NCBI RefSeq assembly: GCF_003324185.1
Contig: NZ_PXUP01000007.1
Span: forward strand, 62,001 to 126,000
DNA from: Faecalibacterium prausnitzii
GTDB lineage: Bacteria > Bacillota > Clostridia > Oscillospirales > Ruminococcaceae
Length of the DNA: 64,000 nt
Reading direction: 5' to 3'
A program made the position numbers and the translations under genes. Of the stretch, positions 29,318-52,454 are shown one piece after another (positions within the stretch are counted from its first letter, which is position 1; each line of letters begins with the position of its first letter). The notes under the pieces are model-generated. The model was not told the DNA's origin. It ran no database searches and saw only the letters and a list, made by a program, of their open reading frames with translations.

Positions 29318-29318
29318 A

Positions 29319-29780: not shown

Positions 29781-30626
29781 TCACTGCTTGATAGGAAGGC
29801 TCCTAGAGCGGCTGGAGCCGTTGTAGGTGCGCAGGATCAGCATCATATATTTGTAGCTGACCGTGCCGCTCAGAGATTTCTCGTCGTTTACCAACGTCAT
29901 GGGATGAACAGTGTGCAGCCGCTTGACCAGACGCTCCGGGTCATACTCGCCCTGATACAGAGCCACAAAGCGAACCATGCCCTGCAGGATGCCGGAGCGG
30001 AGGGAATCGGGGTCACCCTCCCAGCCCTTTGCCAGCATGGTCAGGGCTTCTTTGTAGAGGTCTGCGCCGTAGGTCTTGTACTCCTTGAATGCCGTGCGGA
30101 TGCAGATGATCTTCCACGGGGCACGGTAGCTGTCCAGACCGAGCTGCAGACCGGTGCTTTCGGTGGCTTTCACAAATGCGAGAGATTCCGGGTCTTTGCC
30201 CACCAAAGCGGCGCGCAGCTCTGCGCCAGCGGTCAGCGGCGTGGAAACGCCCGTCTGCCGGGAAAACAGCATGGCTTCTTCTTCCTCTGTCAGTCCCTCG
30301 TACACTTTGCAGATAATCGGAAGATCCTGCCCGCCGTTCATCGCCCGACGGGTCACGATGGTATGCTGACCGTCAAAGACGAAGTAGTGACCGTCCCGGT
30401 AGCTGACCTTGGGCGGGTTGGCGATCAGCTCGGTGAACTCTGCCGACATCTTTTCGACATTGGGAATGTTCAGCTTGCGCTGATATTCCGCAGGGATTTC
30501 GAGAAAGGCACTGTTGATGACCTTTTCTTCGTAAGGCCGCTGAGCGAAAAGGGCTTCGATGATTGCTTCATCGGTGATTTCGGGCATGATCTCAGGCATG
30601 GTGCTGACACAGTTCATATTCTTCAT
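29781..30626 (-). CDS. ParB/sulfiredoxin-like protein (DUF6551-like)
   Basis: A 281-residue protein. The N-terminal region has YFVFDGQHTIVTRR, the ParB-type motif in which a DGxHR-like loop binds nucleotide or DNA, followed by an all-helical part with AMLFSRQTGVSTPLTAG. Such proteins are frequent in Firmicutes integrative elements; their role is unclear (partition, replication or regulation). The start overlaps the preceding stop (ATGA) with GGAGG upstream, so it is cotranslated with the other ParB-like gene. Confidence 0.65.
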   Translation of the reverse strand: MKNMNCVSTMPEIMPEITDEAIIEALFAQRPYEEKVINSAFLEIPAEYQRKLNIPNVEKMSAEFTELIANPPKVSYRDGHYFVFDGQHTIVTRRAMNGGQDLPIICKVYEGLTEEEEAMLFSRQTGVSTPLTAGAELRAALVGKDPESLAFVKATESTGLQLGLDSYRAPWKIICIRTAFKEYKTYGADLYKEALTMLAKGWEGDPDSLRSGILQGMVRFVALYQGEYDPERLVKRLHTVHPMTLVNDEKSLSGTVSYKYMMLILRTYNGSSRSRSLPIKQ

Positions 30627-31666: not shown

Positions 31667-31889
31667 CAAACCGTCCCTTCTTAAAGTAGGTGGATTTCGG
31701 GCTGCTGGGCTGGATGTAGTAGTCGTAACCGAAGTTGGTCTGGCAGTAGGTGCAGGGTTCCTTGGTGAGCTGGTAGGGGTCTGCACGGCGGACACGGATG
31801 CCACGGGTGTTCCGAAAGGCATTCAGGCAGCGGGGGCAGAGGGTGGTCAGGGTCGATTCGTCAGTCTTGTGGGTAAAAGTACGGCTCAT
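31644..31889 (-). CDS. Small zinc-ribbon protein
   Basis: An 81-residue protein with two CxxC knuckles, CPRC and CTYC, about 30 residues apart, in a basic context, suggesting zinc and nucleic-acid binding. GGAGGT lies seven bases before the ATG at 31889. It overlaps the start of the ParB-like gene by 23 bases and is the first gene of the minus-strand unit running to the recombinase. Confidence 0.7.
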   Translation of the reverse strand: MSRTFTHKTDESTLTTLCPRCLNAFRNTRGIRVRRADPYQLTKEPCTYCQTNFGYDYYIQPSSPKSTYFKKGRFDDESECA

Positions 31890-31931
31890 AGTCAATACCT
31901 CCGTGTCATTAGAATAATATTCGGTATGGAA

Positions 31932-31976
31932 AAAGCCCACTGCCTTGATTCAGAAGAATCCCGGTGGTGGGCTTTG
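31932..31976. other. Hairpin in the element's control region
   Basis: AAAGCCCAC and GTGGGCTTT flank a short loop about 45 bases before the zinc-ribbon gene start. It may be an attenuator or part of a transfer origin. The region 31977-32250 shows no gene. Confidence 0.45.
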
Positions 31977-32250
31977 AAGTTTTGCTTTAAGTTTTTCCAA
32001 CCTATTTGTCCTCGACGCCCGTTGGATTTGGAATGCACCTCGGTGAGGGGGACTGCACCCTTCCTCTCATTGGCTTTTCAGCCACCCCGCCTTCTTTATG
32101 GCCGGGCCGCGAATTACGGAAGTTTCATTGTTTTGTCCGAGGGAATGATATTCAATTTTCAAGGTACGGCTTCCAGCTTTGGGCTTCTCCCCGTCTGGGG
32201 TGTTGCCCTTGCTGTGACAATAGTTTATCGTAGAAACACTGTCTTTTTAA

Positions 32251-32319
32251 GGAACTGGTAGTTCCGGTTTTGCCACTTTTTTGAGCGGATTTTTCTCGAA
32301 AATCGGAACTACCAGTTCC
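32251..32319. other. Pair of inverted 15-bp dyads
   Basis: GGAACTGGTAGTTCC (32251-32265) and GGAACTACCAGTTCC (32305-32319) are each palindromic with a 3-base centre and are also exact complements of each other, so the stretch can form two small hairpins or one long 16-bp stem. It lies in a gene-free part of the element between two oppositely controlled units. Candidates are a regulator operator pair or a transfer-origin structure. Confidence 0.6.
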
Positions 32320-32350
32320 GGTTTTTCGTAGATGCGTCAGAAAAAATGGC

Positions 32351-32390
32351 AAAAAAAAAAGAAGCCGAGAATCGCTTCTCGACTTCTTTA
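32351..32390 (-). terminator. Terminator after the XRE gene
   Basis: Minus strand: stem GAAGTCGAGA / TCTCGGCTTC followed by ten T. Confidence 0.88.
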
Positions 32391-32396
32391 TGGTGG

Positions 32397-32723
32397 TTAT
32401 GCAGATGCATCCAGCTCATCAATAAGGCTGTTCAGCTTACTTTTGAAATTCTGGATATTCTGATTCTGCTTCTTGATCTGCGCATTCAACTCCCTTTCCC
32501 GTGGAGTGTCCAATACGCCCAGAATCAAAAAATCTAAGGTGGTGTTCAGTGAAATGGCTACTTCTACCAACAAATCTATGGAAGCAGTGCCTTCCCCTCG
32601 CTCGATCTTTCCCAAATGGCGGTCGCTGATATTCAGCTTTATGGCAAATTGCTCTTGCGTTAAGCCTTTGGTTTTGCGCAGCTGCTGGATGCGTTTTCCT
32701 GTGATGTAAGAATCAAAGTACAT
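32397..32723 (-). CDS. XRE-family regulator with C-terminal coiled coil
   Basis: A 108-residue protein. The helix-turn-helix covers about 10-65 (LRKTKGLTQEQFAIKLNIS and IERGEGTASIDLLVEV), and the C-terminus is a heptad-like helix rich in Gln, Asn and Leu, probably for dimerisation. The start at 32723 overlaps the end of a small upstream frame. Likely a repressor of element functions. Confidence 0.8.
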   Translation of the reverse strand: MYFDSYITGKRIQQLRKTKGLTQEQFAIKLNISDRHLGKIERGEGTASIDLLVEVAISLNTTLDFLILGVLDTPRERELNAQIKKQNQNIQNFKSKLNSLIDELDASA

Positions 32724-32856
32724 AAGCCAGCCCTCCGACCATGCAAGAGTGCAGCCACAGGCCACACCACAGGGTCAGAGCGCAGGAATACAGTCGGTAT
32801 CGAGCCATAATCTGGCTGCCGGGGCTGGGTTCGTACTCAATCAATCTCGTTTTCAT
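32713..32856 (-). CDS. Small hydrophobic protein, unknown
   Basis: A 47-residue frame starting MKTRLIEYEPSPGSQ with AAGGA upstream, then a Cys/Leu/Trp-rich hydrophobic half. Its end overlaps the XRE start by 11 bases, suggesting translational coupling. The sequence is too short for recognition; it could be a leader peptide rather than a functional protein. Confidence 0.45.
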   Translation of the reverse strand: MKTRLIEYEPSPGSQIMARYRLYSCALTLWCGLWLHSCMVGGLAYVL

Positions 32857-32986
32857 GTTTCTTCGTCCTTTCTTTGTCGATGATGGCAAGGCGGGCGGAG
32901 CATGGAAAATGCACGATGCACTCTCCATGATAGTAAAAGGGATAAATCCCTATTGCTATCCATGATAAAAAAGGAAATACGGCTGT

Positions 32987-33307
32987 TTACGGCATGGTAC
33001 TCAGCAAATGAACTACTGCTTCTTTTTGCTCTGGACGCAACGCAGACCATTTTTCAAGCATTTCTGCCTGTTCATGAGTAAGTACAACAGCTTCCCGTTC
33101 GCCGGATTCAACCACTGAGAAAAATTCTGTCAATGTGATTCCGAATGCATCACAGATTTTCAGAAGCGTTGGTATAGTAGGGACGATGTCCTTTCTGTAC
33201 CATGAGGAAATGGTAGTTGGCTTGATTCCAGCGTGAGATGCCAAATCATAATTCGACCAGTGCCGAGCTTCACGGTAAGATGTTATCGTGTCCAAGACAT
33301 TTTTCAC
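32987..33307 (-). CDS. XRE-family regulator
   Basis: A 106-residue protein with helix-turn-helix at about 10-60 (ASHAGIKPTTISSWYRKD, LLKICDAFGITLTEFF) and a short helical C-terminus. It starts with GTG; GAGGAGG lies seven bases upstream, which decides this start over longer frames. It faces away from the 33524 gene, and a perfect palindrome lies in that gene's promoter, so it may control both. Confidence 0.85.
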   Translation of the reverse strand: MKNVLDTITSYREARHWSNYDLASHAGIKPTTISSWYRKDIVPTIPTLLKICDAFGITLTEFFSVVESGEREAVVLTHEQAEMLEKWSALRPEQKEAVVHLLSTMP

Positions 33308-33461
33308 CGAAAAGCCTCCTCTGCCGTAAAACTTGCGCTCATTATACCGTAGAAAAAGAAAAATTATAATCCTTTTAGACGTACATTCGCGACGACTTTC
33401 GGGCATACCGGATAAGCTTTGCATTGGCAGTTGAAAACGGCTCAGGTTACCTATTGCAATT

Positions 33462-34364: not shown

Positions 34365-35306
34365 TTAAAACGTGCAAAGCCGCTTAACAGGGGTAAGCGG
34401 GAATCTTTTTTCCACGCCTGCCATGGTGCACATTTGCGTGCCGGGCAGTTCCAGAGAAGCGTGTGCACAGGAAACTGCCATTTTAAGCAGCTGATCTCCT
34501 TGGGTGTGCTGTTCGGCAATCGCATAGGCAAAGCCGGACACCATGGAATCGCCCGCACCCTGAACGCCTTTTACATCGACAGAAACAGGTTCCGAATACC
34601 ATGCAGCTTCCGGTGTGACCAGCAGCGCACCCTTTTCGCCAAGAGAAACTGCGCCGTAGGCAATGTTGTGCTCTATGAGGATTTGACGATAGCTTGCGCA
34701 GAACTCCTGCGTTACACTGGGATGAACGCCGAAGGTGGCATAGTATTCTTCTTCGTTGGGTTTAATCAGAACAGGAGATGCCTCCATTCCGTTCAGAAGC
34801 AGCGGCCCCGATGCGTCCAGAATAAAGGGCACGTCATATTCCTGTGCGCTTTTGCCAAGTTCATAGTAGAAGTCGTCAGGAAAGCCCGGTGGCACACTGC
34901 CGCCAAGGATCAGCACCGATGTTGTGGGCAGAACATTTTTGACAGCGCGAATAACATCCACGGCAGTTTCGGGATGTAGAGGAGTGCCCTTTTCGTTGAA
35001 CTCCGTCATGCAGCCCGTAGATGTTTCAAACAGCTTGATATTGATACGGACATTTCCGGGGACGGGGATAAGCTCTGCATCCATATCTCTTTGCTTGAAG
35101 AAATCCGCTGCTTCTCCATCTGAATGGCTCAGGCAGACGCTTTTGACCGGCATTCCAAGCTGGGTAAGTGCCAGCGAAACATTGATGCCCTTGCCGGAAA
35201 AGTCGCAGATCGTTTTCTGGACACGATGGCTATGACCAAGGTTGACGGAATCCACCTGAATCGTGCGGTCAATGCAGGGATTCGCAGTAACAGTTGTAAA
35301 GTGCAT
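34365..35306 (-). CDS. lacC: PfkB-family kinase, probable tagatose-6-phosphate kinase (LacC-like)
   Basis: A 313-residue ribokinase-fold sugar-phosphate kinase. TANPCIDRTIQV at the start and GKGINVSLALTQLG are typical of the LacC/1-phosphofructokinase branch, and VQGAGDSMVSGF carries the catalytic Asp and anion hole. With AgaS and KbaYZ nearby, the expected reaction is tagatose-6-phosphate to tagatose-1,6-bisphosphate. 1-phosphofructokinase is the alternative by family, but no fructose PTS is present here. Confidence 0.8.
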   Translation of the reverse strand: MHFTTVTANPCIDRTIQVDSVNLGHSHRVQKTICDFSGKGINVSLALTQLGMPVKSVCLSHSDGEAADFFKQRDMDAELIPVPGNVRINIKLFETSTGCMTEFNEKGTPLHPETAVDVIRAVKNVLPTTSVLILGGSVPPGFPDDFYYELGKSAQEYDVPFILDASGPLLLNGMEASPVLIKPNEEEYYATFGVHPSVTQEFCASYRQILIEHNIAYGAVSLGEKGALLVTPEAAWYSEPVSVDVKGVQGAGDSMVSGFAYAIAEQHTQGDQLLKMAVSCAHASLELPGTQMCTMAGVEKRFPLTPVKRLCTF

Positions 35307-36037: not shown

Positions 36038-36083
36038 AAAAACTGCCCGGAACGACCTTCTCCTATCGTTCCGGGCAGTTTTA
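36038..36083. terminator. Bidirectional terminator
   Basis: Perfect arms AAAACTGCCCGGAACGA and complement around an 11-base loop; serves the small membrane protein gene and the convergent HPr gene. Confidence 0.85.
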
Positions 36084-36127: not shown

Positions 36128-36385
36128 TCAAACGTTCTCGTTCAGGAATGCAGCAATTTCTTCTGCGGCGACGGTCTCATCCTCACCCTCAACCGTGACG
36201 GTGATGGTTTCGCCCTGCTTGATGCCAAGTCCCATGACTGCCATCAGCTTGCGCATATCACAGGTCTTGCCATCCTTTTCAATGGTGACCTTGCTGGCAT
36301 ACTTCTTCGCCAGCTTGACCAGCAGACCGGCGGGGCGGGCGTGGACGCCAAGTTCGTCCTTGATGGTATAAGTAAACTGTTTCAT
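36128..36385 (-). CDS. HPr-family phosphocarrier lacking the regulatory Ser46
   Basis: An 85-residue HPr. Phospho-accepting His15 is in GVHARPAG. Alignment by eye with B. subtilis HPr needs no gaps up to residue 60: where that protein has Ser46 in NLKSIMG, this one has Lys46 in DMRKLMA. It should pass phosphate from enzyme I to EIIA but cannot be phosphorylated by HPr kinase, so it would not take part in CcpA signalling. AAGGAGA precedes the ATG at 36385. It is 46 bases after kbaZ, in the nagA-kbaZ-HPr unit, suggesting a dedicated carrier for this PTS. Confidence 0.92.
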   Translation of the reverse strand: MKQFTYTIKDELGVHARPAGLLVKLAKKYASKVTIEKDGKTCDMRKLMAVMGLGIKQGETITVTVEGEDETVAAEEIAAFLNENV

Positions 36386-36431: not shown

Positions 36432-37721
36432 TCAGACGGCGCTCTCGTAGTCCAGCATGAACTGCACAATGCCGTCCATAGCCAGCTCACGCGGGTCGAG
36501 CTTCAGCTGACCTTCACGGATCTTGGCATAGCTGATGGGCATATACTGGTGCAGCATATTCATGGGGATGGGGTACTCGCGCAGGTTGTCGAACAGCTTG
36601 TTCATGGCTGCAACGACTTCCGGCTGACCGATGTAGTAGCGGGCACGGTCAGAGTAGCTGTATTTGCGGCACTGTGCCAGATGCTTTTCGTCACCGTGGT
36701 AGTGCTTTTCCCAGTTTGCAGGGGAAGCCAGCATGACCTGATCCAGCGTTTCGATAAAGTTGGCGCGCTTTTCTTCCGGTACCAGTTCCTTCTCCATCAT
36801 GCTCAGAGAGAACAGAGCCTCGCGCAGACCAAAGGTCAGAGCAGGACCGACCTTCAGGATAGCAATACCATCAGTGACCATGTTGTACAGGTCGGTTGCG
36901 GTCTGGTAGTCGGTAGAGTGACCCTCGAAGCAGATGTCGGGGAACTCCTTCAGAGCGGCGCACAGGTCAACGGCTGCGGCAGGGTTGTAGTCGAACACCT
37001 GCTCATCGCCAAATTCCACACCGGGCTGGACAACGACTGCGATAACGTCCTTCATGCCCTCGCCAACGCCTTCCTCAGTCCAGACGCGCTGATAGGTGGA
37101 AACGGTATCACGGAATGCTTCGGGCTTAGTGACAGCCAGCGTATCCTCTGCCTCGGTTGCACCACCGGGGATGGGCACTTCACTGCCGATAACGAACACC
37201 GGGCGCATTGCATCGGGCTTCTCAGCTTTCAGTTCCTCGTAGCCCTTCATAGCAGCCTTGTACAGCTTTGCGCCACGGCGAGCGATGACCTCGGTCTGGA
37301 GCAGACCTTCCGGGTCGTCTGCAACCTTCATGCTGGTATCCAGATGGATCTTGGTAAAGCCGGCGCGTGCATACTGGTAAACCAGTTCCACGGAGTTTTC
37401 CATTGCTTTGGACTCCGGCAGCTTCTGCCAAGTCAGAGGTCCGAGGTGGTCGCCTGCCAGAATCATCATGTTTTCGGGCAGACCGATGTCGCTTGCCATT
37501 TTCAGGACCATCTGGTAGAAATCAGCGGGCTTCATGCCGGTGTAACCGCCAAACTGGTTGACCTGATTGGCAGTTGCCTCGATCAGAACAGGAATGTTGC
37601 GCTCCTTTGCACGGCGCAGGGCGATCTCGATTACCAGTTCGTTGGCACTGCAATAAGAGGGGATGCCGCAGCGAATACCCTCACGGCGCTTATCCATCAT
37701 TTCCTGAAGGGGATGTTTCAT
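36432..37721 (-). CDS. kbaZ: Tagatose-1,6-bisphosphate aldolase, KbaZ/GatZ-type subunit
   Basis: A 429-residue GatZ/KbaZ protein, which stabilises and activates the class II aldolase subunit KbaY. Typical segments are IPSYCSANELVIEIAL, EATANQVNQFGGYTGM and LAGDHLGPLTWQ. The full length is normal for the family. AAGGAG lies upstream of the ATG. It stands between nagA and the HPr gene; the catalytic partner is encoded at 41464-42315. Confidence 0.92.
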   Translation of the reverse strand: MKHPLQEMMDKRREGIRCGIPSYCSANELVIEIALRRAKERNIPVLIEATANQVNQFGGYTGMKPADFYQMVLKMASDIGLPENMMILAGDHLGPLTWQKLPESKAMENSVELVYQYARAGFTKIHLDTSMKVADDPEGLLQTEVIARRGAKLYKAAMKGYEELKAEKPDAMRPVFVIGSEVPIPGGATEAEDTLAVTKPEAFRDTVSTYQRVWTEEGVGEGMKDVIAVVVQPGVEFGDEQVFDYNPAAAVDLCAALKEFPDICFEGHSTDYQTATDLYNMVTDGIAILKVGPALTFGLREALFSLSMMEKELVPEEKRANFIETLDQVMLASPANWEKHYHGDEKHLAQCRKYSYSDRARYYIGQPEVVAAMNKLFDNLREYPIPMNMLHQYMPISYAKIREGQLKLDPRELAMDGIVQFMLDYESAV

Positions 37722-37751: not shown

Positions 37752-38891
37752 TTACAGCTTTGCCTGACCCTTGCAATAGGTCTGGAGCACATCGTAGTTG
37801 TCCTCCAGCACCACAATGTCGGCATCCTTGCCCACCTGAATGGAACCCTTGCGGTCATCCAGATGCAGGCAGCGCGCAGGGTTGATGGTGCAGGCGTTCA
37901 GCGCATAGTTGAACGGTACCATTGCATCCTCGACAAGGATCTTCAAGCCCTTGTTGATGTTCAGGGTAGAGCCAGCCAGACCACCGGTAGAGGTCAGGTG
38001 TGCGCTGCCGTCCGGATAGATCACGATTTCGTTGCCGCCGAAGATGTACTTGCTGCCCACGGGGGTGCCCTTTGCCATCAGCGCATCGGAGATCATGATA
38101 GAATAGTCGGGACCCTTGCTCATAAAGTAGTTGTTCAGAGCAGCCGGGGTGGAATGGCAGCCGTCGCAGATGATCTCACCGTACATGGTGCGGATGCGGT
38201 ATGCTGCACCCACCAGACCGTTTGCGCGGTGGTTGAAGGGTGTCATACCATTATAGACATGGGTCATGGAGCGTGCGCCATTGGCGTAAGCCATGACTGC
38301 CTGCTCGTAGGTGGCAGCACTGTGACCGATGCTGACAACGATACCCTGCGAAGTCAGGTAGCGGGTCAGTTCAAAGTTATCGTCCTGTTCGGTAGCCAGC
38401 GTAACATAGCGGATATGGCCGTGTGCGGCTTCCTGATAGTGCTTGAACTGCTCTACGCTGGGCTTTGCAATGAACTGCTCCGGCTGTGCGCCCTTGTACT
38501 TCATGTCCAGATAAGGACCCTCGAAGTGGATGCCAAGGATCTCGGCACCGTCGTAGCCGCCCTCCATGACACGGGCAACGTTGGCAACGGCATTGGTCAG
38601 GACCTCAACGCTCTGGGTGATGGTGGTAGCCAGAAAGCTGGTCACGCCCTCCGAAACGATATGCTCTGCCCAGTAACGCAGACCTTCCTCGTTTGCATCG
38701 TTGGTGTCAAACTCATAGGCACCGTGGCAGTGGATGTCCATAAAGCCGGGGACGATACGCTTGTCACCGTAATCGTCATCTACATCCTTTGTCCCATAGG
38801 GGAAAATGCCGACGATCTTACCCTCTTTGACCTCGATGGCAGCAGGCACAAACTGATCAGCGATCCATACTTTTTTACTTTGAATTATCAT
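37752..38891 (-). CDS. nagA: N-acetylgalactosamine/glucosamine-6-phosphate deacetylase
   Basis: A 379-residue amidohydrolase that removes acetate from an N-acetylhexosamine-6-phosphate. Metal ligands and catalytic residues are visible: HCHG, HFEGPYL, GHSAAT, THVYNGM and the catalytic Asp in ISDALMA. The neighbours (AgaS, KbaYZ, LacC-like kinase) suggest GalNAc-6-phosphate as natural substrate, i.e. an AgaA role, although many enzymes accept both isomers. AGGAGG upstream of the start. Probably the first gene of the nagA-kbaZ-HPr transcript, divergent from agaS. Confidence 0.92.
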   Translation of the reverse strand: MIIQSKKVWIADQFVPAAIEVKEGKIVGIFPYGTKDVDDDYGDKRIVPGFMDIHCHGAYEFDTNDANEEGLRYWAEHIVSEGVTSFLATTITQSVEVLTNAVANVARVMEGGYDGAEILGIHFEGPYLDMKYKGAQPEQFIAKPSVEQFKHYQEAAHGHIRYVTLATEQDDNFELTRYLTSQGIVVSIGHSAATYEQAVMAYANGARSMTHVYNGMTPFNHRANGLVGAAYRIRTMYGEIICDGCHSTPAALNNYFMSKGPDYSIMISDALMAKGTPVGSKYIFGGNEIVIYPDGSAHLTSTGGLAGSTLNINKGLKILVEDAMVPFNYALNACTINPARCLHLDDRKGSIQVGKDADIVVLEDNYDVLQTYCKGQAKL

Positions 38892-39191: not shown

Positions 39192-40370
39192 ATGAGCATT
39201 TTTAATTTGACTGATGAGAAGATGAAGGAAACTTCTTCCACTTTTACTGCACATGAGATCTATCAGCAGCCTGCAACTTGGCGCAAGACCTGTGCACAGC
39301 TGGCTGCCTGCAAGGATGAGCTGCAGGCTTTTATCGATCAGGTCGTCAAGCAGGATGACTTCGACATCGTTCTGGTCGGCGCAGGCACCAGCGAGTTCGT
39401 TGGCAACTCCCTGTTCCAGGCTCTGAACCCCAAGTACAACTACAAGGTCAAGTCCTACGCTTCCACCGATATCGTTCCCTCCCCGGAGAATTTCCTGTCC
39501 CGCACCAAGCCCACCCTGCTGGTGAACTTTGGTCGTTCCGGCAACTCTCCTGAGTCTCTGGGCAACGTGGAGGCAGCAGAGGTCGTCTGCCAGAACCTGT
39601 ACCACCTGTTCGTGACCTGCAACCACGAGGGTACTCTGTCCAAGATGGCTGCAAGCCGCAAGAACTGCTTCGCTATCAACCTGACCCCGGAGACCCATGA
39701 CCAGTCCTTCGCCATGACCTCCAGCTACAGCAATATGTATCTGGCAACCTATCTGGCACTGAATCTGGACAAGCTGGATGAGATCACTGCCGAGGTCGAG
39801 AAGCTGGCCGTTGCAGGTCAGCACTTCCTCGATGACCAGTTCGGTGAAGTCCAGAAGATCGTGGACGAGTTCGATTACAACCGTATCGTTTATCTGGGCA
39901 ACATCGGCCTGAAGGGCGTTGCACAGGAGTCTGCACTGAAGACTCTGGAGCTGACTGCCGGCAAGGTCGCTACCATGTACGATTCCGAGCTGGGCTTCCG
40001 TCACGGTCCCAAGTCCATCATTGACGATAACACCCTGACCATCGCTTATCTGAGCGACGATGAGTACCGCCGCCGCTATGAGCTGGATCTGGTCAAGGAG
40101 ATGGCACATCAGCGCAAGGGCAACAAGATCGTCGTTGTTTACAACCACGATTGCGAAGGCATTGAGGAGCTGGCAGATTACCCCATCCAGATCAAGATCG
40201 GTCAGGACATGGAGAACGTTCTGCTGGGTCTGGACTTCATCCTGTTTGCTCAGACCATCGCTCTGATGAAGTCTCTGTCTCTGGGCATTACCCCGGACAA
40301 CCCCTGCCCCACTGGTGAGGTGAACCGTGTTGTCAAGGGTGTCACCCTGTATCCGTACACGCTGAAGTAA
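39192..40370 (+). CDS. agaS: AgaS-type SIS-domain deaminase/isomerase
   Basis: A 392-residue protein with two sugar-isomerase (SIS) domains: IVLVGAGTSEFVGNSL, LLVNFGRSGNSPES (phosphosugar-binding Ser/Thr loop) and LELTAGKVATMYDSELGFRHGPKS. AgaS converts galactosamine-6-phosphate to tagatose-6-phosphate with loss of ammonia. AGGAGG precedes the ATG. First gene of a unit with the EIIA and YajC-like genes. GlmS-like roles are unlikely because no glutaminase domain is present. Confidence 0.92.
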   Translation: MSIFNLTDEKMKETSSTFTAHEIYQQPATWRKTCAQLAACKDELQAFIDQVVKQDDFDIVLVGAGTSEFVGNSLFQALNPKYNYKVKSYASTDIVPSPENFLSRTKPTLLVNFGRSGNSPESLGNVEAAEVVCQNLYHLFVTCNHEGTLSKMAASRKNCFAINLTPETHDQSFAMTSSYSNMYLATYLALNLDKLDEITAEVEKLAVAGQHFLDDQFGEVQKIVDEFDYNRIVYLGNIGLKGVAQESALKTLELTAGKVATMYDSELGFRHGPKSIIDDNTLTIAYLSDDEYRRRYELDLVKEMAHQRKGNKIVVVYNHDCEGIEELADYPIQIKIGQDMENVLLGLDFILFAQTIALMKSLSLGITPDNPCPTGEVNRVVKGVTLYPYTLK

Positions 40371-40395: not shown

Positions 40396-40839
40396 ATGAT
40401 CGGTTTGGTAGTTACCGGCCACGGCCATTTTGCTGATGGCATCCACACTTCCGCTCAGATGATCGCTGGCGAGAACGAGTATGTCCGCTACATCAACTTT
40501 GAAGAGGGTATGACCCCGGAGCAGCTGGCGCAGAAGTTCAACGCCGCATTCGATGAGTTCCGCACCTGCGATGGTGTCGTGGTTCTGTCCGATCTGCCGG
40601 GTGGCTCTCCTTTCAAGACGGCAGTTGAGTGCAAGTACGCACGGCCCGATCAGAAGATCGAGGTCATTTCCGGCACGAATCTGCCGATGATCGTTACTGC
40701 GGTTACGATGCTGGATATGGAAGATGATCCCCGCGCTCTTGCAGAAGAACTGGTTGACACCGGCAAGGATTGTATGGTAATCTTTGAGTTACAGGCTCCT
40801 GCCGAAGAAGCCGAATCTGATGAAAGCGACGGAATCTAA
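40396..40839 (+). CDS. agaF: PTS mannose-family EIIA
   Basis: A 147-residue EIIA of the mannose/fructose/sorbose/GalNAc family. GLVVTGHGHFADG contains the phosphorylated His (His9 by alignment with EIIA-Man), and LPGGSPFKTA is typical. It takes phosphate from HPr and passes it to the EIIB encoded at 44888. AGGAGG upstream; 25 bases after agaS. EIIA is separated from EIIB/C/D, as in some GalNAc and hyaluronate operons. Confidence 0.92.
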   Translation: MIGLVVTGHGHFADGIHTSAQMIAGENEYVRYINFEEGMTPEQLAQKFNAAFDEFRTCDGVVVLSDLPGGSPFKTAVECKYARPDQKIEVISGTNLPMIVTAVTMLDMEDDPRALAEELVDTGKDCMVIFELQAPAEEAESDESDGI

Positions 40840-40842
40840 ACA

Positions 40843-41127
40843 ATGATCAATTGGGAAGTAATTATTTGGACCTGCATTACGCTGGCAGTCATTATGGGCG
40901 TGATCGGTCTCATCCTGTATGCGATCTCTGCCAAGAATATGCGCAATAAGCGCAAGGAGCTTGGCGAAGTCCATACGGACATGAAGGTCGGCTCCCGCAT
41001 TATGTTTGCCGGTGGCATCTACGGCAAGATCGTAAGCATGGAGGATGAAGATACTCTCCGTGTGGAAGTTGCACCGAAGATCGTTATTACTATTTCCCGT
41101 TATGCCGTCCAGAGCATCGTAAAATAA
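40843..41127 (+). CDS. YajC-like membrane protein of the PTS cluster
   Basis: A 94-residue protein: one membrane segment (about 7-28), basic stretch, then a small domain DMKVGSRIMFAGGIYGKIV...VEVAPKIVITISRYAVQSI matching the YajC fold. YajC normally accompanies SecDF, but YajC-like genes also occur in streptococcal hyaluronate/amino-sugar PTS operons, so this is probably a PTS-associated paralogue. It starts three bases after agaF. Not enough similarity is visible to claim a Sec role. Confidence 0.8.
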   Translation: MINWEVIIWTCITLAVIMGVIGLILYAISAKNMRNKRKELGEVHTDMKVGSRIMFAGGIYGKIVSMEDEDTLRVEVAPKIVITISRYAVQSIVK

Positions 41128-41463: not shown

Positions 41464-42315
41464 TTATGCCTTGCCGTTGCTGCCACAAACAAGGATCTTG
41501 CTCATGACGTACTCCTTGACCTGCTCACGACCAACTGCGCTGTACTTCTTCGGGTCAAATGCTTCGGGATCGCCTGCAAGATATTCTTTCAGACCCTTGC
41601 TGAATGCGATGCGGAGATCGGTGGCATAGTTCACCTTGCACATACCGCGGGCAACGCACTCACGGACGGCATCATCCGGGACACCGGAGGTGCCATGCAG
41701 CACCAGAGGAACAGAAACGACCTTGCGGATCTCGCTCAGGCGGTCGATGTCCAGCTTCGGGGTTCCCTTGTAAACGCCGTGTGCGGTGCCGATAGCAACA
41801 GCCAGAGAATCCACACCGGTGCGCTCTACGAACTCAGCAGCTTCGGAAGGAACAGTGTAGCCATTGCCATTGCCGCCGTCCAGATCATCTTCCTTGCCGC
41901 CGACCTTGCCCAGCTCAGCTTCCACAGGGATGCCGGCTGCATGGCAGGCACGAACAACTTCCTTGGTGATCTCGATGTTTTCCTCGAAAACATGGTGAGA
42001 ACCATCGATCATCACAGAGGTGTAGCCTGCACGGAATGCTTTCATAGCCAGCTCGTAGCTGCTGCCGTGGTCAAGGTGCATCACAACAGGAACAGTAGCC
42101 TCGGAAGCGGCAGCTGCGACCATAGCATGGAACATGGCCGGAGAAGCATACTTCAGAGTACCCGGAGTGGTCTGGACGATAACGGGGGCACGCAGTTCCT
42201 CTGCAGCAGCGATGATGGCCTGAACCATCTCCATGTTCTCTGCATTGAATGCGCCGATTGCGTAATGGTTCTTCTGAGCATCAAGCATCAGTTCTTTGGT
42301 AGTGACTAAAGCCAT
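41464..42315 (-). CDS. kbaY: Tagatose-1,6-bisphosphate aldolase, catalytic subunit KbaY/GatY
   Basis: A 283-residue class II aldolase cleaving tagatose-1,6-bisphosphate to dihydroxyacetone phosphate and glyceraldehyde-3-phosphate. Zinc ligands and catalytic residues are in VVMHLDHGSS, GYTSVMIDGSHH and AIGTAHGVYKG. The length and FNAENMEMVQA start fit the GatY/KbaY branch rather than the longer fructose-bisphosphate aldolases. Its own consensus promoter stands about 100 bases upstream. The KbaZ subunit is encoded at 36432-37721. Confidence 0.9.
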   Translation of the reverse strand: MALVTTKELMLDAQKNHYAIGAFNAENMEMVQAIIAAAEELRAPVIVQTTPGTLKYASPAMFHAMVAAAASEATVPVVMHLDHGSSYELAMKAFRAGYTSVMIDGSHHVFEENIEITKEVVRACHAAGIPVEAELGKVGGKEDDLDGGNGNGYTVPSEAAEFVERTGVDSLAVAIGTAHGVYKGTPKLDIDRLSEIRKVVSVPLVLHGTSGVPDDAVRECVARGMCKVNYATDLRIAFSKGLKEYLAGDPEAFDPKKYSAVGREQVKEYVMSKILVCGSNGKA

Positions 42316-42476: not shown

Positions 42477-43448
42477 TTAGAAGTCGAGGTGGGCATCTTT
42501 CCGGGCGGCTTCCAGTACGGCTACCGCCGATCTCATTGCACGAATGCGCCGCTCTTTGACGGCATCCTGCGGAACAATCAGGAAGTTGGAGATGCCAAGA
42601 ACTTCAAACCACCAAGGCGTATCGGAGATTTCACTGATGTAGGGTTCTTTTCCCTTCCGGGTGACAACAAGTTTCTGGCAGTTGTTGCTGCCCGGCTCAA
42701 TCAGGATGCTGCCCTCGGTGCCAATGATCTGGGCACTGTTGTGCGCAGAGCTATCTTTTGCAGCCGTACACTGACAGACAAAATTCGGGTATTCCAGAAT
42801 CAGGATGCCGCTGGTGTCGATGCCGTTGGCGTGGCGGTTCGGGTAATAGTGGACGGCTTTCGGGTCGCCAAAAAGCCCTACCACAAAATAGATGTTATAA
42901 ATATTGAGGTCCATCAAGGCTCCGCCGCAGTATGCGGGGTCGAACACAGGGGGAGTCTGCCCATTCATAAAGGCATCATACCGGCTGGAATACTGGCAGA
43001 AGGTGCAGGATACCGTCTTGATGTCACCAATCTCCTTTGCAAACAGCTTTGCCATACCATAGTTCGGATGGTCGATGGTCGTAATAGCCTCCAGCAGGTG
43101 CAAATGGCGCTCTTCCGCAAGGCCGAGCAGTTCATCCAGCTGTGCCAAGGTGGGGACGATGGGCTTTTCGCAGAGAACGTGCTTTCCGGCCAGCAGCGCA
43201 GCCTTGGCCTGCTCAAAGTGCAGGCTGTTGGGAGTGGCGATATACACCAGTTCCACTTCCGAGTCCGCAAGCATTTTATCGTATTCGGTATAGACCTTGG
43301 GAATGGGAATATGAAACTCATGGGCCATTGCAACTCCCGTGTCTGCATTGCGGGAACACACGGCAACAACGGGCATTGTCGTGAGACGTGCAAACTCCTT
43401 TGCCATCGTATGGGCAATGGAGCCTGTTCCGACCATTCCAATATTCAT
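42477..43448 (-). CDS. Gfo/Idh/MocA-family oxidoreductase
   Basis: A 323-residue NAD(P)-dependent dehydrogenase. Rossmann start NIGMVGTGSIAHTMA, then ATPNSLHFEQA and the signature CEKPIVP with the catalytic Lys; the C-terminal alpha/beta domain binds substrate. Substrates in this family are sugars, inositols or their derivatives; which one cannot be told. It is 12 bases after the AraC gene on the same strand and so belongs to the cluster, but it has no obvious step in the GalNAc route. Confidence 0.85.
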   Translation of the reverse strand: MNIGMVGTGSIAHTMAKEFARLTTMPVVAVCSRNADTGVAMAHEFHIPIPKVYTEYDKMLADSEVELVYIATPNSLHFEQAKAALLAGKHVLCEKPIVPTLAQLDELLGLAEERHLHLLEAITTIDHPNYGMAKLFAKEIGDIKTVSCTFCQYSSRYDAFMNGQTPPVFDPAYCGGALMDLNIYNIYFVVGLFGDPKAVHYYPNRHANGIDTSGILILEYPNFVCQCTAAKDSSAHNSAQIIGTEGSILIEPGSNNCQKLVVTRKGKEPYISEISDTPWWFEVLGISNFLIVPQDAVKERRIRAMRSAVAVLEAARKDAHLDF

Positions 43449-43460: not shown

Positions 43461-44660
43461 TCACTTCTTATTTTGAAGATTCTGCTTTACAAACTCACTG
43501 GGCGACATATGATACTTCATATTAAAGGACTTGGAAAAATAATGGATGGAGGTGTAGCCCAGCCGCAGGGAAATCTCACTGATGGTATAGCGGTTTTCCA
43601 GCAGCATCTGACAGCTTCTCTCCAACTTTTTATCATTGATGTACTTTTTCGGGGACTGGTCGATGGAATTCTTGAACATCAGCTGCAACGCCGTCCGCGA
43701 CAGCGAAAAGTGTTCGCAGATTTCCGGGATCGTCAGAGGAAGGTAGATGTTTTCATCAATATAGGCGATGATCCGGTCAAACAGTTCATCCATTGCACTC
43801 TTGTGCACGGAATTGCTGGACTGGTTCATAGGGGAAGCATAGGTTCCCTGCAGCAGCCGGATGATGATCTCAGTCAACAGACAGAGCATCAGACTGTTCA
43901 TATAAGGAATGCCGGTTGTGCTTTCCCGGACGAACGCTTTTATTAAGGAGTTGATCTTCTGGTCATAGTGGAACACCCGGTTGATCAGAGCATCGTACCA
44001 GACCTCCTGTTCCACAGGGGTCAGATTGCGCATATCGAACAGCACCGTCATATACGAGGCGCTGTGGCTGTCATCCGTATACTGGGTGTGGAACTGACCG
44101 GGACCGTAGATCATCAGTTCCTTGTCTTTCAGCTGGTACAGTGTTCCGTCCACCTTAGTTTCGAGTTCGCCCTCGTCTACATACGTCAACTCAAAAAAGT
44201 TATGCTGCTCACCCTTAAAGCAGTAATTCGGGGTGCGGATTCTATAATAATACCCCAGGATCTTCTGCATTTCAATACGGGGCAGAACCGCAAGGAACTC
44301 ATACTGGGAAGGGAAATCGGTAACATGGAGAGAATAGTTGCTTTCGGCATACAGTTCAAATTCCAGCTTCTGTGTAGTAGAAACCGCCGCAAAATAGACA
44401 TTGGGCTTGATGTGAATCAGCCGGTTCATGGCAAACTCTTGTACATCGGCGGCATCTGCCGTATGGGAGACCAGCAAAACACCGATGCCGTCTTGCACCT
44501 CTATATAGGTATCACAGTTAAAACAATAGAACTGTGATACATAGCGGCGGGTGATGGCGGTCAGATGCTGGTGGATCAGGTCAGGGTGCGTGAGCCTGAT
44601 GGGTTCGTGGTAGGTTTGACCGTACTCCAGAAAGCTGTCGTTGGAAGTTTCGCGTTGCAT
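43461..44660 (-). CDS. AraC-family transcriptional regulator
   Basis: A 399-residue regulator. The N-terminal half includes a cupin-like segment (TYVDEGELETKVDGTLY, GPGQFHTQY) for ligand sensing, and the last 100 residues carry the two AraC helix-turn-helix motifs (ICEHFSLSRTALQLMFK and ISLRLGYTSIHYFSKSF). It is divergent from the EIIB/C/D operon, with direct repeats in the shared gap that could be its sites. Probably the activator of the cluster. Confidence 0.9.
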   Translation of the reverse strand: MQRETSNDSFLEYGQTYHEPIRLTHPDLIHQHLTAITRRYVSQFYCFNCDTYIEVQDGIGVLLVSHTADAADVQEFAMNRLIHIKPNVYFAAVSTTQKLEFELYAESNYSLHVTDFPSQYEFLAVLPRIEMQKILGYYYRIRTPNYCFKGEQHNFFELTYVDEGELETKVDGTLYQLKDKELMIYGPGQFHTQYTDDSHSASYMTVLFDMRNLTPVEQEVWYDALINRVFHYDQKINSLIKAFVRESTTGIPYMNSLMLCLLTEIIIRLLQGTYASPMNQSSNSVHKSAMDELFDRIIAYIDENIYLPLTIPEICEHFSLSRTALQLMFKNSIDQSPKKYINDKKLERSCQMLLENRYTISEISLRLGYTSIHYFSKSFNMKYHMSPSEFVKQNLQNKK

Positions 44661-44887: not shown

Positions 44888-45364
44888 ATGCCGAACATTG
44901 TTCTAACTCGAATCGACAATCGTCTGGTTCACGGACAGGTTGCTACGCAGTGGTGCGGCGCAATCGGCGCAAACCTGATTCTGGTCGCAAATGACGAGGT
45001 GGCTGGCAACAGCCTGCGTCAGGGCCTGATGAACATGGCTGCTCCTTCATACGCAGCTATGCGCTACTGGACCATCCAGAAGACCATCGACACCATCCAC
45101 AAGGCAAGCGCAAAGCAGCTGATTTTCATCGTCTGCGAGAATCCGCAGGATGTCGTGAAGCTGGTGGAGGGTGGCGTTCCCATCAAGAAAGTCAACATCG
45201 GCAATATGCACATGGCTGACGGTAAGCGTCAGGTGGCAGGTTCCGTTGCAGTTGACGATTCCGATGTGGCTGCTTTCAAGCGGCTGCAGGAACTCGGTGT
45301 GGAACTGGAGATTCGTCGTGTTCCTACCGAACATGCGGAAAGCACCGACAAGCTGTTCAAGTAA
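44888..45364 (+). CDS. agaV: PTS mannose-family EIIB
   Basis: A 158-residue EIIB of the mannose/sorbose/GalNAc family. His15 in RIDNRLVHGQVAT is the phosphorylation site. GNMHMADGKRQVA and the GVPIKKVNIG segment support the GalNAc/hexosamine branch. AAGGAGGA precedes the ATG. First gene of the EIIB-EIIC-EIID-HAD operon. Confidence 0.93.
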   Translation: MPNIVLTRIDNRLVHGQVATQWCGAIGANLILVANDEVAGNSLRQGLMNMAAPSYAAMRYWTIQKTIDTIHKASAKQLIFIVCENPQDVVKLVEGGVPIKKVNIGNMHMADGKRQVAGSVAVDDSDVAAFKRLQELGVELEIRRVPTEHAESTDKLFK

Positions 45365-45407: not shown

Positions 45408-46226
45408 ATGGGCTTTAGTGCACTTCAGATCATTCTGGTCTTTGTGTGGGTCTTTATCGTGGCCATCGACCAGTTTGATTTCTTGGAATCCCTGTACCAG
45501 CCTATCGTTTCCGGTGCTGTCATCGGTGCGATCTTGGGCGATCTTCCCACCGGTCTGATCGTTGGCGGTACTTACCAGCTGATGACCATCGGTAACATGC
45601 CTGTTGGCGGCGCACAGCCTCCTAACGCAGTTATCGGCGGCGTCATGGCTACCGTGTTCGCAATCTCTTCTCATCTGGATACCACCGCTGCTGTCGGTCT
45701 GGCAGTTCCCTTCGCTCTGATCGGCCAGTACATGGTTACCTTCCTGTTCACCCTCATGTCCCCCATGATGTCCAAGGCTGACCAGCTGGCAGCAAAGGGC
45801 GACACTAAGGGCATTGTCCGTCTGAACTATCTGGCAATGGCTCTTCTGGGCCTGCTGTTCGCCATCGTCTGCACCCTCGGTATGCTGGGCGGCTCTGCAA
45901 TGGGTACTACCCTGAGCAACTTGGCTGAGAAGTACGCTTGGGTCATGGCTGGTCTGGGCGCTGCCGGTGGTATGATGCGTTTCGTCGGTTTCGCAACCCT
46001 GCTGCGTATCATGCTGTCCAACGAGTTCTGGGGCATCTACTTTGCTGGTTTTGCTCTGGCAACCATCATCGGCTACATCCCCGAACTGTCCGGCTCTGCT
46101 CTGCTGCTGATCGCATTTGTGGGCATTGCAATTGCTCTGTACGACTACCAGACTCGCGTTGCTATCAAGCAGGCTGCTGGTTCTGGTTTTGCTGCGAATG
46201 GAGGCGACGACGAAGATGGCATCTAA
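45408..46226 (+). CDS. agaC: PTS mannose-family EIIC
   Basis: A 272-residue membrane protein with about eight hydrophobic segments, forming with EIID the transport channel. VSGAVIGAILGDLPTGLIVGGTYQL is diagnostic of mannose-family EIIC (motif near residues 30-55). AAGGAG lies upstream; its 3' end overlaps the EIID start by 11 bases. Confidence 0.93.
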   Translation: MGFSALQIILVFVWVFIVAIDQFDFLESLYQPIVSGAVIGAILGDLPTGLIVGGTYQLMTIGNMPVGGAQPPNAVIGGVMATVFAISSHLDTTAAVGLAVPFALIGQYMVTFLFTLMSPMMSKADQLAAKGDTKGIVRLNYLAMALLGLLFAIVCTLGMLGGSAMGTTLSNLAEKYAWVMAGLGAAGGMMRFVGFATLLRIMLSNEFWGIYFAGFALATIIGYIPELSGSALLLIAFVGIAIALYDYQTRVAIKQAAGSGFAANGGDDEDGI

Positions 46227-47043
46227 TGCAACTCATTACAACAATCTGACTCCCGCGAAGCCTTTGGATAAGGCTACGCTGAATAAGATGGTGTTCCGTT
46301 CCCTGAACCTGCAGGCATCTTTCAACTACGAGCGTATGCAGGCTGCCGGCTGGCTGTACTGCATCCTGCCCGGTCTGGAAAAGATCCACAGCGATAACAA
46401 GGAAGATCTGAAGCTCTCCATGGAGCATAACCTTGAGTTCTTCAATACTCACCCCTTCCTCGTTACCTTCGTTATGGGCATCATCCTCTCTCTGGAGCAG
46501 CAGAAGGCTGACATCGAAACCATTCGTGCCGTGCGTGTTGCTGCTATGGGTCCTCTGGGCGGTATCGGCGACGCAATCTTCTGGTTCACTCTGGTTCCTA
46601 TCACCGCAGGTATCACATCGAACATGGCAATAAACGGATCGCTTGCTGGTCCTATCATGTTCCTGCTGATCTTCAACATTGTGCAGTTTGCTTGCCGCTT
46701 CTTCCTGATGTACTGGTCTTACAATCTGGGTACTAAGGCTATCGACATCCTGACTGCAAACGCTAAGGAGTTCACTCGTGCCGCTTCCATGCTGGGCGTC
46801 TTCATCGTTGGTGCTCTGACCTCCAACTACGGCGGCACCACCGTTGCTACCGTCATCGAGAACGGCGACAGCCCCATCGTTATCCAGAGCATTCTGGATG
46901 GCGTTCTGCCCAAGCTGATTCCTCTGGCTCTGACCCTCGGCCTGTTCTTCCTGATGAAGAAGAAGAACTGGAAGCCCGTTACCTGCATCGCTCTGCTGCT
47001 GGTGATCGGTCTGGTCGGCGCATTCTTTGGTATCTTCGCTTAA
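46216..47043 (+). CDS. agaD: PTS mannose-family EIID
   Basis: A 275-residue EIID. SLNLQASFNYERMQAAGW and LEFFNTHPFLVTFVMG are characteristic, with GPLGGIGDAIFWFTLVP preceding the membrane helices. The start at 46216 is set by GGAGG in the end of the EIIC gene; a longer frame reads through EIIC in another frame and is not coding. Completes the transporter. Confidence 0.93.
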   Translation: MASNATHYNNLTPAKPLDKATLNKMVFRSLNLQASFNYERMQAAGWLYCILPGLEKIHSDNKEDLKLSMEHNLEFFNTHPFLVTFVMGIILSLEQQKADIETIRAVRVAAMGPLGGIGDAIFWFTLVPITAGITSNMAINGSLAGPIMFLLIFNIVQFACRFFLMYWSYNLGTKAIDILTANAKEFTRAASMLGVFIVGALTSNYGGTTVATVIENGDSPIVIQSILDGVLPKLIPLALTLGLFFLMKKKNWKPVTCIALLLVIGLVGAFFGIFA

Positions 47044-50471: not shown

Positions 50472-50968
50472 CATTCCTCTGAGATGCCGAGATATTGGTC
50501 GATCTCCATGATGCCCTCCCCGCTGAGTTCCACCAGATCTTCAAAGGGCACCACGGTGTCGCCCACCTGCAAGGTGCGGAACACCGGGTCGATGCGGTCT
50601 GCTTTTCCGGTCAGCGTGATGTAGTTGCCCACCGCCGGAACCTCCGGGTGGGCAGTGTCCTCCTTGAAGTACCGCACTGTGATGGTCATGCCCTTGGTGA
50701 CCTGCATCAGCCGATCGGACAGAGCCGACATTTCTTCCTCGGTCAAAATGCGCTTGGGCACACGCTCGGTGCGCTGCTTTTCTGCGGCAAGTTGCTCATC
50801 ATAACCACGCAAGGCTGCAAAGGGAGAGAAAATCTTTGCCCGGTTCTGTAAAGTCATGCGGGGGTGCTTGCGAAGGGATTCTTCGGTCTGGGGGCGTTCC
50901 ATCTCTATGATGTCCCTGTACTTTTGGGCGGTCTCTTGTCCGATCTTGCTATTTTTGTAGTTTTCCAT
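50471..50968 (-). CDS. YolD-like protein
   Basis: A 165-residue protein. The segment RMTLQNRAKIFSPFAALRGYDEQL fits the YolD core (FxALxGY). YolD-like genes commonly accompany Y-family polymerases (UvrX/UmuC type) on mobile elements and may regulate or bind them. AGGAGG is five bases before the ATG at 50968, inside the polymerase gene's end, so the two are coupled. Confidence 0.75.
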   Translation of the reverse strand: MENYKNSKIGQETAQKYRDIIEMERPQTEESLRKHPRMTLQNRAKIFSPFAALRGYDEQLAAEKQRTERVPKRILTEEEMSALSDRLMQVTKGMTITVRYFKEDTAHPEVPAVGNYITLTGKADRIDPVFRTLQVGDTVVPFEDLVELSGEGIMEIDQYLGISEE

Positions 50969-52454
50969 CCGAACCTCCTGCGCTGTGACCACCGATCTGC
51001 GCATTGCGCTGGCGCATGGTGGCACCTTCCTCGTAGCTGCTGGCTTTCAGCACGGCGTTTTTGCCGTACTTGTTCTTGATGCCCAACATGGCTTGCTGGA
51101 GTTTTTTCTCCTTTTCCAGCTTCTTGGTGTCGGTGAAAAAGTCCACCTGATAGATGCCCTCGTCCGGGGTGACCTTGTTGGCGTTGAGGGTGATGCGCCG
51201 CACCGTCAGCGCCGGATTTGTAATGCGCTCAAACAGCTTTGCGCTTTCGTTGATGATGGTGCTGCCTAGATTGGTAGGAGCATCGAACCGGACGGTGCCG
51301 TGTGCCGCTTTGGGGATGATTCTGCCGTAGCGGTCGGTCTGGGTCAGACCACGGTAGCCGCCCTTGTCCACGTTCTCCCGGTCGTAGCCCACCTCCAAGG
51401 TGATGGATTCCGTCACCAGCTTCTTTTCGGTAAGCCGGAACATCAAGATCTCTGCCATTTCCCGGACGATGAGTTTTGCCTTATCGTTGGGGTAGGGGCA
51501 GGTCAGCACCTGTCCCTCACTGATGCTGTTGGTGCTGGGCTTGTAGCTTTTGATTTGTTCCATGCCGCAGGGTTCATAGCCCCATGCGTGGTCAATAAGG
51601 ATTTCTGCGTCTACGCCAAAGACCTCATACAAACGATCTTCTCCGTGGATGGAAAACCGTGCCAAGTCCCCCATCGTATAAATGCCGTGGGCTTCCAGCC
51701 GCTTGACGGTGCCGGGACCGGTCATCCAGAAATCCGTCAGCGGTCTGTGGTTCCACAGCAGATACCGGTAGGACTGCTCGTCCAGCTCTGCAATGCGGAC
51801 ACCATCTTTGTCCGCCGGGATGTGCTTTGCCACAATGTCCATGGCCAACTTTGCAAGGTAGAGGTTGGTACCGATGCCTGCCGTTGCCGTGATGCCGGTG
51901 TTGTACAGCACTTCCCGCACCATGGTCATGGCAAGTTCATGGGCGCTCATGTGATAATAAGGCAGATAGCCCGTCACATCAATGAAAACCTCGTCGATGG
52001 AGTAGGGGTAGATATCTGCCGGGGATACATATTTGAGGTAGTTCTTGTAGATTTGGGTGGACACATCCAGATACCGCTGCATCCGGGGCGGCGCAACAAT
52101 GTAACTCAAGCCCAGTGCAGGGTCTGTGTTCAGGGCGTTGGCATCGAAAGAGGTGCTGGCAAAGTGGTACTTGCCGTCCTCTCCCCGGACTGCCTTATTC
52201 TGCCGGATGGCAGTCTGCAGCCGCTGGGCGTTGACTTCCCGGACACGCTGGACGGCTTCAAACAGCCGCGCTCTGCCGGGTATCTTGTAGGCTTTTAAGG
52301 AGGGCGACACCGCAAGGCAAATGGTCTTTTCGGTGCGGGAGGCGTCCGCCACCACCAGATTGGTGGTCAGGGGGTCGAGATGGCGGTCTACGCACTCCAC
52401 CGAGGCATAGAAACTTTTCAGGTCGATTGCCAGATAAGTGCGCTGCGCTGCCAT
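50949..52454 (-). CDS. Y-family DNA polymerase (UmuC/UvrX type)
   Basis: A 501-residue translesion polymerase. LAIDLKSFYASVECVDRHLDP at the start has the first catalytic Asp (FYASVE steric gate region), and YSIDEVFIDVT the SxDE catalytic pair; thumb and little-finger domains follow. About 80 extra C-terminal residues exceed DinB, as in UvrX/UmuC-like element proteins. AAAGGAGG before the start. Gives the element an error-prone or damage-tolerant polymerase. Confidence 0.9.
   Translation of the reverse strand: MAAQRTYLAIDLKSFYASVECVDRHLDPLTTNLVVADASRTEKTICLAVSPSLKAYKIPGRARLFEAVQRVREVNAQRLQTAIRQNKAVRGEDGKYHFASTSFDANALNTDPALGLSYIVAPPRMQRYLDVSTQIYKNYLKYVSPADIYPYSIDEVFIDVTGYLPYYHMSAHELAMTMVREVLYNTGITATAGIGTNLYLAKLAMDIVAKHIPADKDGVRIAELDEQSYRYLLWNHRPLTDFWMTGPGTVKRLEAHGIYTMGDLARFSIHGEDRLYEVFGVDAEILIDHAWGYEPCGMEQIKSYKPSTNSISEGQVLTCPYPNDKAKLIVREMAEILMFRLTEKKLVTESITLEVGYDRENVDKGGYRGLTQTDRYGRIIPKAAHGTVRFDAPTNLGSTIINESAKLFERITNPALTVRRITLNANKVTPDEGIYQVDFFTDTKKLEKEKKLQQAMLGIKNKYGKNAVLKASSYEEGATMRQRNAQIGGHSAGGSDGKLQK

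Follow-up and report, generated by a model that had tools for sequence, protein, structure and literature searches.

Gene organization around the HPr gene

The window, by which the whole 64-kb stretch of DNA analyzed here is meant, belongs to the genome of a gut Faecalibacterium and carries a ptsH-like gene inside a GalNAc gene cluster (Table 1). The HPr is encoded on the minus strand, from 36385 to 36128, and the plus-strand reading of the same interval gives no HPr. By gene order, the ptsH-like gene would be the last gene of a nagA–gatZ–ptsH unit, at the end of which a probable terminator hairpin is located. Scans for promoters and terminators around the HPr gene gave no more matches than were obtained in shuffled sequence.

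Table 1. Features of the window that surround and include the HPr gene
Feature	Position	Strand	Remarks
ptsH-like gene, HPr of 85 amino acids with His15 and Lys46	36128..36385	minus	AAGGAG 5 nt before the ATG; 46 nt downstream of gatZ
CAC codon of His15, the residue expected to take the phosphoryl group from enzyme I	36341..36343	minus	
Lys46 codon AAG, replacing Ser46	36248..36250	minus	
Hairpin of 18 pairs directly after the HPr gene, probable terminator of the nagA–gatZ–ptsH unit	36039..36082	minus	from folding, -32.8 kcal/mol, z -7.0; absent from the output of the consensus scan
gatZ/agaZ-like tagatose-bisphosphate aldolase subunit, upstream of the HPr gene	36432..37721	minus	509 bits, under the equivalog cutoff of 568.8
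nagA, N-acetylhexosamine-6-phosphate deacetylase	37752..38891	minus	314 bits, cutoff 225.65
PfkB sugar kinase, candidate tagatose-6-phosphate kinase	34365..35306	minus	
agaS-like SIS isomerase/deaminase	39192..40370	plus	SIS domain only; agaS is a putative name
AgaF-like EIIA, likely phosphoryl acceptor from the window HPr	40396..40839	plus	128.1 bits, slightly below the AgaF cutoff of 130
GatY-type class II aldolase	41464..42315	minus	
GFO/IDH/MocA oxidoreductase	42477..43448	minus	possibly the GH109 gene of the cluster in PMC10808065 (partial text)
AraC-family regulator	43461..44660	minus	possibly rhaR of the cluster in PMC10808065 (partial text)
EIIB, sorbose/mannose family	44888..45364	plus	
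EIIC, sorbose/mannose family	45408..46226	plus	
EIID, mannose/Aga family	46117..47043	plus	longest reading frame; true start probably further in
dinB-like gene	50949..52454		

A GalNAc cluster in a structural variant of F. prausnitzii has been reported to occur more often in secretors of blood group A (PMC10808065, partial text). The window cluster appears to be this ABO-associated cluster, as judged by gene content and not by sequence: a four-subunit GalNAc PTS, gatY and gatZ, a flanking dinB gene and a ptsH gene in the region are common to both. The accessible part of that paper names ptsH, rhaR and immR as potential regulators; residue 46 and the other HPrs are not discussed in it. The closest named relative of the window HPr, with records of the window's own genome possibly omitted, occurs in Faecalibacterium longum CLA-AA-H243, at 80% identity and with the surrounding genes in matching order.

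Several further genes accompany the cluster. A gene for a YajC-like protein (40843–41127) lies 3 nt after agaF, and F. longum has one too. Between the GalNAc cluster and dinB, a 139-residue frame with a hydrophobic N-terminal stretch encodes a glucose-type EIIB domain (48872–49291) without an EIIC of its own. On the side of the cluster opposite dinB, the region 27293–33424 encodes a large serine recombinase, a DUF6551 protein and two HTH regulators, which agrees with the published view of the GalNAc region as mobile.

Residues and structure of the window HPr

The protein is recognized as an HPr by Pfam PTS-HPr PF00381 (103 bits, cutoff 23) and by TIGR01003 (95.5 bits, cutoff 47.9). A sequence-only reading of this DNA had placed, in an eye alignment without gaps, a lysine at the position of Ser46 of Bacillus subtilis HPr, the target of HPr kinase, with His15 kept. 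This placement was upheld by two programs: alignment with B. subtilis HPr using MAFFT numbers the histidine 15 and the lysine 46 and is ungapped up to there, and HMMER alignment with the HPr of the CcpA complex 1rzr is ungapped over residues 1–74, with Lys46 opposite the serine of the 1rzr chain. The GxHARPA motif contains His15 and Arg17, both of which are conserved without exception among 26 aligned relatives.

The correspondence is also borne out by structural alignment. An AlphaFold model obtained with 26 sequences has a mean pLDDT of 96.6 and superposes on the HPr of the HPrK/P–HPr complex 1kkl with an r.m.s.d. of 0.7 Å, and residue 46 is located immediately N-terminal to the helix formed by residues 47–52. 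The 20 best matches of the model in a PDB structure search are all HPrs, with TM scores of 0.87–0.96. The serine targeted by HPr kinase is thus not present in the window HPr, although an HPr kinase is encoded in the genome. The lysine is no sequencing quirk, because the AAG codon is also found in both close orthologs, relative to which the gene has a Ka/Ks of 0.14–0.17.

Other HPrs, kinase and regulators of the genome

Four HPrs were detected in the window's own genome using PF00381, namely the window HPr (C68), C72, C76 and C13. The C72 HPr is located between trmD and uvrC, is 29% identical to the window HPr and is the sole Ser46 copy of the four (NAKSLLG); against PDB chains it scores highest with Thermoanaerobacter HPr (92.8 bits), followed by Crh (70–72 bits) and then by Bacillus-group HPrs (54.6–63.5 bits). 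The C76 HPr adjoins an enzyme I gene, carries Lys46 and the same HARPAG motif as the window HPr and is 68% identical to it. The C13 HPr, likewise with Lys46, is separated by 4 nt from a fructose-type EIIABC, and a PRD regulator is encoded close by. A search for a normal ptsH in the same genome thus yielded one Ser46 HPr and two further Lys46 HPrs.

The genome encodes one HPr kinase, which is canonical (TIGR00679, 346 bits, cutoff 240); its gene is intact and stands in the order hprK–murB–rapZ–whiA, and the sequence carries the Walker A motif and the HPr kinase signature. That the window HPr is the sole HPr of a lineage without a kinase was ruled out by these four HPrs and the HPr kinase. There are two enzymes I, 33% identical to each other, both of which retain the SH active-site motif. 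The second of these (own genome C13; locus L012, 8388–10019) adjoins a patatin-like protein, and its active-site motif is intact. Kang and co-workers reportedly studied the PTS of F. prausnitzii in 2021, and some of these HPrs may be described there.

The view that a regulation-blind HPr lies inside a sugar cluster holds in part. Residue 46 offers nothing for the kinase to phosphorylate, the gene stands in a PTS cluster, and the genome has a Ser46 HPr and a canonical HPr kinase. The window HPr is, however, no exception beside a normal general HPr, because the C76 HPr next to enzyme I and the C13 HPr also carry Lys46. This bears on the explanation that the window HPr is a special carrier through which GalNAc uptake would escape the CcpA-type repression acting on a normal Ser46 general HPr. 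Such a role would fit a Lys46 protein encoded among PTS genes where HPr kinase and a Ser46 HPr are present as well, yet the carrier presumed to be the general one is itself blind already. The proposed link to CcpA repression was not sustained either: six proteins in the genome match the CcpA model, none of them above the cutoff, with the best at 182 bits against a cutoff of 442. A divergent CcpA is possible in this genome because CcpA is the top PDB match of the best LacI-family candidate, yet this candidate has IELLVR where CcpA has MRLLTK, the stretch that presumably contacts HPr-Ser-P. In the 64-kb window, one cre-like match was found versus 0.58 expected by chance, and the site was dropped as support for CcpA. 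The special carrier is consequently considered improbable. Among PDB matches, a Ruminiclostridium HPr, 7ff5, was found with the HPrs and a LacI protein, 7ff4, with the LacI candidate; these two presumably belong together and to a non-PTS route, and they may be a clostridial case of HPr kinase in bacteria that lack a complete PTS.

It has also to be considered whether the window HPr mainly controls the cluster, for example by phosphorylating a transcription factor. The naming of ptsH as a potential regulator, together with rhaR and immR, in the accessible part of PMC10808065 and the location of the third Lys46 HPr near a PRD regulator favor such a function, but the cluster's own regulator is of the AraC type, with no PRD domain found in it, and the motif of the HPr is that of a carrier, so that a primarily regulatory role appears very improbable.

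Descent of the window copy within the genus

Orthologs of the window HPr with 80% identity occur in G042 and G053, which together with the window makes three of 31 genus genomes. The gatZ gene is found in four of the 31 and is adjoined by an HPr gene in three of these four. The fourth, G046, has a gatZ that is 92% identical with no HPr beside it; the duplicate HPr is therefore dispensable for the cluster. Relative to G042 and G053, Ks is 0.82–0.97 for the HPr gene and 0.86–0.87 for gatZ, and the corresponding Ka/Ks values are 0.14–0.17 and 0.03, so that the gene is under purifying selection. The similar Ks values and the Ka/Ks of the HPr gene probably reflect a long joint descent with the cluster under a constraint that is looser but real.

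These values are relevant to the alternative that the window HPr is a plain spare carried along in the cluster: it and the enzyme-I-linked Lys46 HPr could stand in for each other, and dosage would be all that it contributes. The cluster of G046, the 68% identity and common HARPAG motif of the two Lys46 HPrs, and the looser constraint evident from a Ka that is approximately five- to sixfold higher than in gatZ while Ks is similar are all as this alternative would have it. Against it, Ka/Ks is still 0.14–0.17, the gene has been retained beside gatZ in three of four genomes, and its synonymous distance, similar to the one for gatZ, points to a long joint descent. A plain spare is therefore regarded as rather unlikely, with more in its favor than the two explanations considered above.

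The neighbors of the window HPr in the tree, after its two orthologs, are the enzyme-I-linked Lys46 HPrs of the genus, and none of the starred branches contains it; this position suggests that the duplication took place inside the genus, although branch support is not strong. Lys46 was most likely inherited from the enzyme-I-linked HPr of the genus, of which the window copy would be a duplicate. Among HPrs located beside enzyme I in the genus sample, His15 is present in 30/30 and Ser46 in 1/30, these copies having been found with a Lys46 protein as the query. As far as sequence can indicate, the HPr that serves transport in this genus usually lacks Ser46, and a separate HPr would keep the serine for signaling. 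The expectation that Lys46 HPrs are specific to aga clusters had to be abandoned: when 80 named loci encoding related HPrs were scanned, relatives of AgaS, AgaF or GatZ were seen at L142 only within the stretches of DNA covered. Ser46 is absent from 81 of the 82 HPr copies in these loci, a ratio that is no frequency because the peptide patterns of the scan include the Lys46 motif.

Survey of family and class genomes

The family sample comprised 41 genomes, including the window's own, drawn from a larger group, and 70 full-length HPrs were aligned. The class sample comprised 49 further genomes, of which 39 have full-length HPrs (63 copies), two have a short HPr-like match only and eight have no match. 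Family copies without residue 15 (L079, L081 and L082), short matches covering approximately residues 19–79 and L080, in which the profile detected no HPr, were left out of the counts. Neighbors were counted at a distance of up to 2 kb, and some loci comprise 1.5 kb per side only, owing to which 13 family, 24 class and six genus copies, with neither uvrC/trmD nor enzyme I in the DNA covered, were left unassigned.

The retention of residues 15 and 46 goes with the type of locus. HPrs beside uvrC or trmD have Ser46 in 64/64 cases (family 40/40, class 24/24) and His15 in 56/64 (family 39/40; class 17/24, with E, N, G or Q as substitutes). HPrs beside enzyme I have His15 in 32/32 cases (family 17/17, class 15/15) and Ser46 in 17/32 (family 7/17, class 10/15); two of the 15 class copies, the second copy of L259 and L319, lie in reading frames of approximately 685 residues. 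Across family and class, the association of locus type with residue loss has Fisher p values of 4e-9 for Ser46 and 0.05 for His15, uncorrected for kinship. Both residues are lost in two class copies (L317 and L318), which are identical in sequence and come from the same genus. In a poorly resolved tree of 169 copies, calculated with columns 15 and 46 removed, at least six changes are required at residue 46 and at least eight at residue 15.

Copies without Ser46 were found only where enzyme I is encoded: in the family, 16 copies in 11/27 genomes with enzyme I versus 0/14 without it, and in the class, 12 copies in 10/17 genomes with enzyme I versus 0/22 that have an HPr and no enzyme I. The loss beside enzyme I is frequent but not a rule, because 17 of 32 copies keep Ser46 there, many of them of an HMRPAG-like type that retains it, and because 16/27 family and 7/17 class genomes with enzyme I have no copy lacking Ser46. 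An HPr with His15 is present in every enzyme-I genome (27/27 and 17/17). In nine of the 27 family genomes with enzyme I, the uvrC-type HPr is the only full-length HPr and presumably also serves transport.

A Ser46 HPr of the C72 type occurs in 41/41 family genomes and has uvrC or trmD beside it in 39/41, the copies of G015 and G017 being unassigned. Enzyme I was found in 27/41 family genomes and HPr kinase in 40/41; the sole enzyme I of three family genomes is a weak scorer (55–67 bits). In the class, enzyme I was above the cutoff in 17/49 genomes, with one more under it, and HPr kinase was found in 40/49. HPr kinase tracks HPr more closely than it tracks enzyme I. The eight class genomes without an HPr match are also without a kinase match, and G088 alone combines an HPr with the absence of a kinase hit (Fisher p = 2e-8), whereas the kinase has no clear link to enzyme I, being found in 16/17 genomes with and 24/32 without it (p = 0.14). 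Absences in these kinase searches are soft because B. subtilis, which has the gene, was missing from the control hits. A full-length Ser46 HPr is present in 37 of the 40 class genomes with the kinase; the other three (G080, G101 and G118) each have a short HPr-like protein retaining the Ser46 core.

Three further observations were made in these genomes. A third HPr-like family of approximately 75–100 residues occurs in Clostridia (L331–L350; L079, L081 and L082), in which the whole GLHARPA region is lost and a Ser46 core, DAKSIMGIFSLDLSKP or similar, is kept in 20/20 fetched class copies and in the three family copies; judging from these residues, it looks like a minimal Ser46-only protein, and it is not among the four PF00381 hits of the window's own genome. 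In G014 (L071; 3332–4258, 6014–6286), a second HPr kinase with Walker A is located 1.8 kb from an operon that holds an Arg46 HPr, enzyme I, EII genes and an antiterminator. In G020 (L014, 1486–1803), a second HPr in tandem with the uvrC-type copy has Arg in place of His15 and keeps Ser46.

Discussion

In the textbook model of Firmicutes, transport through His15 and catabolite signaling through Ser46 are located on one HPr. The window HPr resembles the HPr of Bacilli (PtsH; TIGR01003/PF00381) in its fold, its length, its GxHARPA motif with His15 and Arg17 and its adjoining PTS genes, but differs from it in having Lys in place of Ser46, the target of HPr kinase. The division of roles recalls Crh of Bacillus, an HPr paralog specialized for one of the two phosphorylation sites, and Crh outscores the Bacillus-group HPrs as a match to the C72 HPr. 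Crh is at the same time the mirror image of the window HPr, since it keeps Ser46 and has lost His15 (PMC9631020, partial text), whereas the window HPr keeps His15 and has lost Ser46. The laboratory ptsH1 (HPr-S46A) mutants are likewise carriers with His15 that the kinase cannot modify, and S46A had a growth cost in Parageobacillus (PMC9631020, partial text); unlike these mutants, the change seen here is natural, is usual in the genus sample and introduces Lys or Arg instead of Ala.

HPr kinase is known from bacteria without a complete PTS, such as Xanthomonas (PMC6916182, partial text). A broad treatment of HPr paralogs does not, in its accessible part, compare residue 46 among them (PMC2405797), and the accessible parts of PMC12118421 and PMC12136445 contain nothing on HPr. 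No report of a natural HPr without Ser46, of a mirror image of Crh or of a split by locus was found in the literature searched, with most subscription journals outside the search.

The window HPr is probably a PTS carrier beyond the reach of HPr kinase, a duplicate belonging to the GalNAc cluster that would work alongside a separate, Crh-like Ser46 protein. PEP would supply the phosphoryl group, which enzyme I would transfer to His15 in the window HPr and which would then move on through AgaF (EIIA) and EIIB/C/D to the sugar. Because Lys46 cannot be phosphorylated, high levels of glycolytic intermediates should, through HPr kinase, neither stop this carrier nor make HPr-Ser-P from it. From established HPr biochemistry, the window HPr would stay open to enzyme I regardless of the kinase, and the HPr-Ser-P signal would be left to the Ser46 HPr between trmD and uvrC. 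The duplicate would add an extra phosphoryl carrier, predicted to be made together with the GalNAc genes. Since the general carrier of the genus is apparently already kinase-blind, any physiological benefit of the window copy would more likely lie in dosage and co-expression than in a special escape.

A wider interpretation is put forward tentatively. In many Clostridia, HPr may be split reciprocally, such that the transport HPrs on the enzyme I side keep His15 and shed Ser46, and the housekeeping HPr on the uvrC side, accompanied by HPr kinase, retains Ser46 while its His15 may be shed. Catabolite signaling would then be uncoupled from PTS flux and could persist without a PTS, and the mobile ABO-linked GalNAc cluster would bring its own kinase-blind HPr, which would work alike in any recipient.

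The survey also raises an old question, namely the role of HPr kinase and a Ser46 HPr in many relatives in which no enzyme I was found. This genus is a major butyrate producer of the gut, and with the roles of His15 and Ser46 on different proteins, its PTS sugar uptake via the main carriers should escape throttling by HPr kinase, which makes the genus a direct test case for how gut Clostridia rank sugars.
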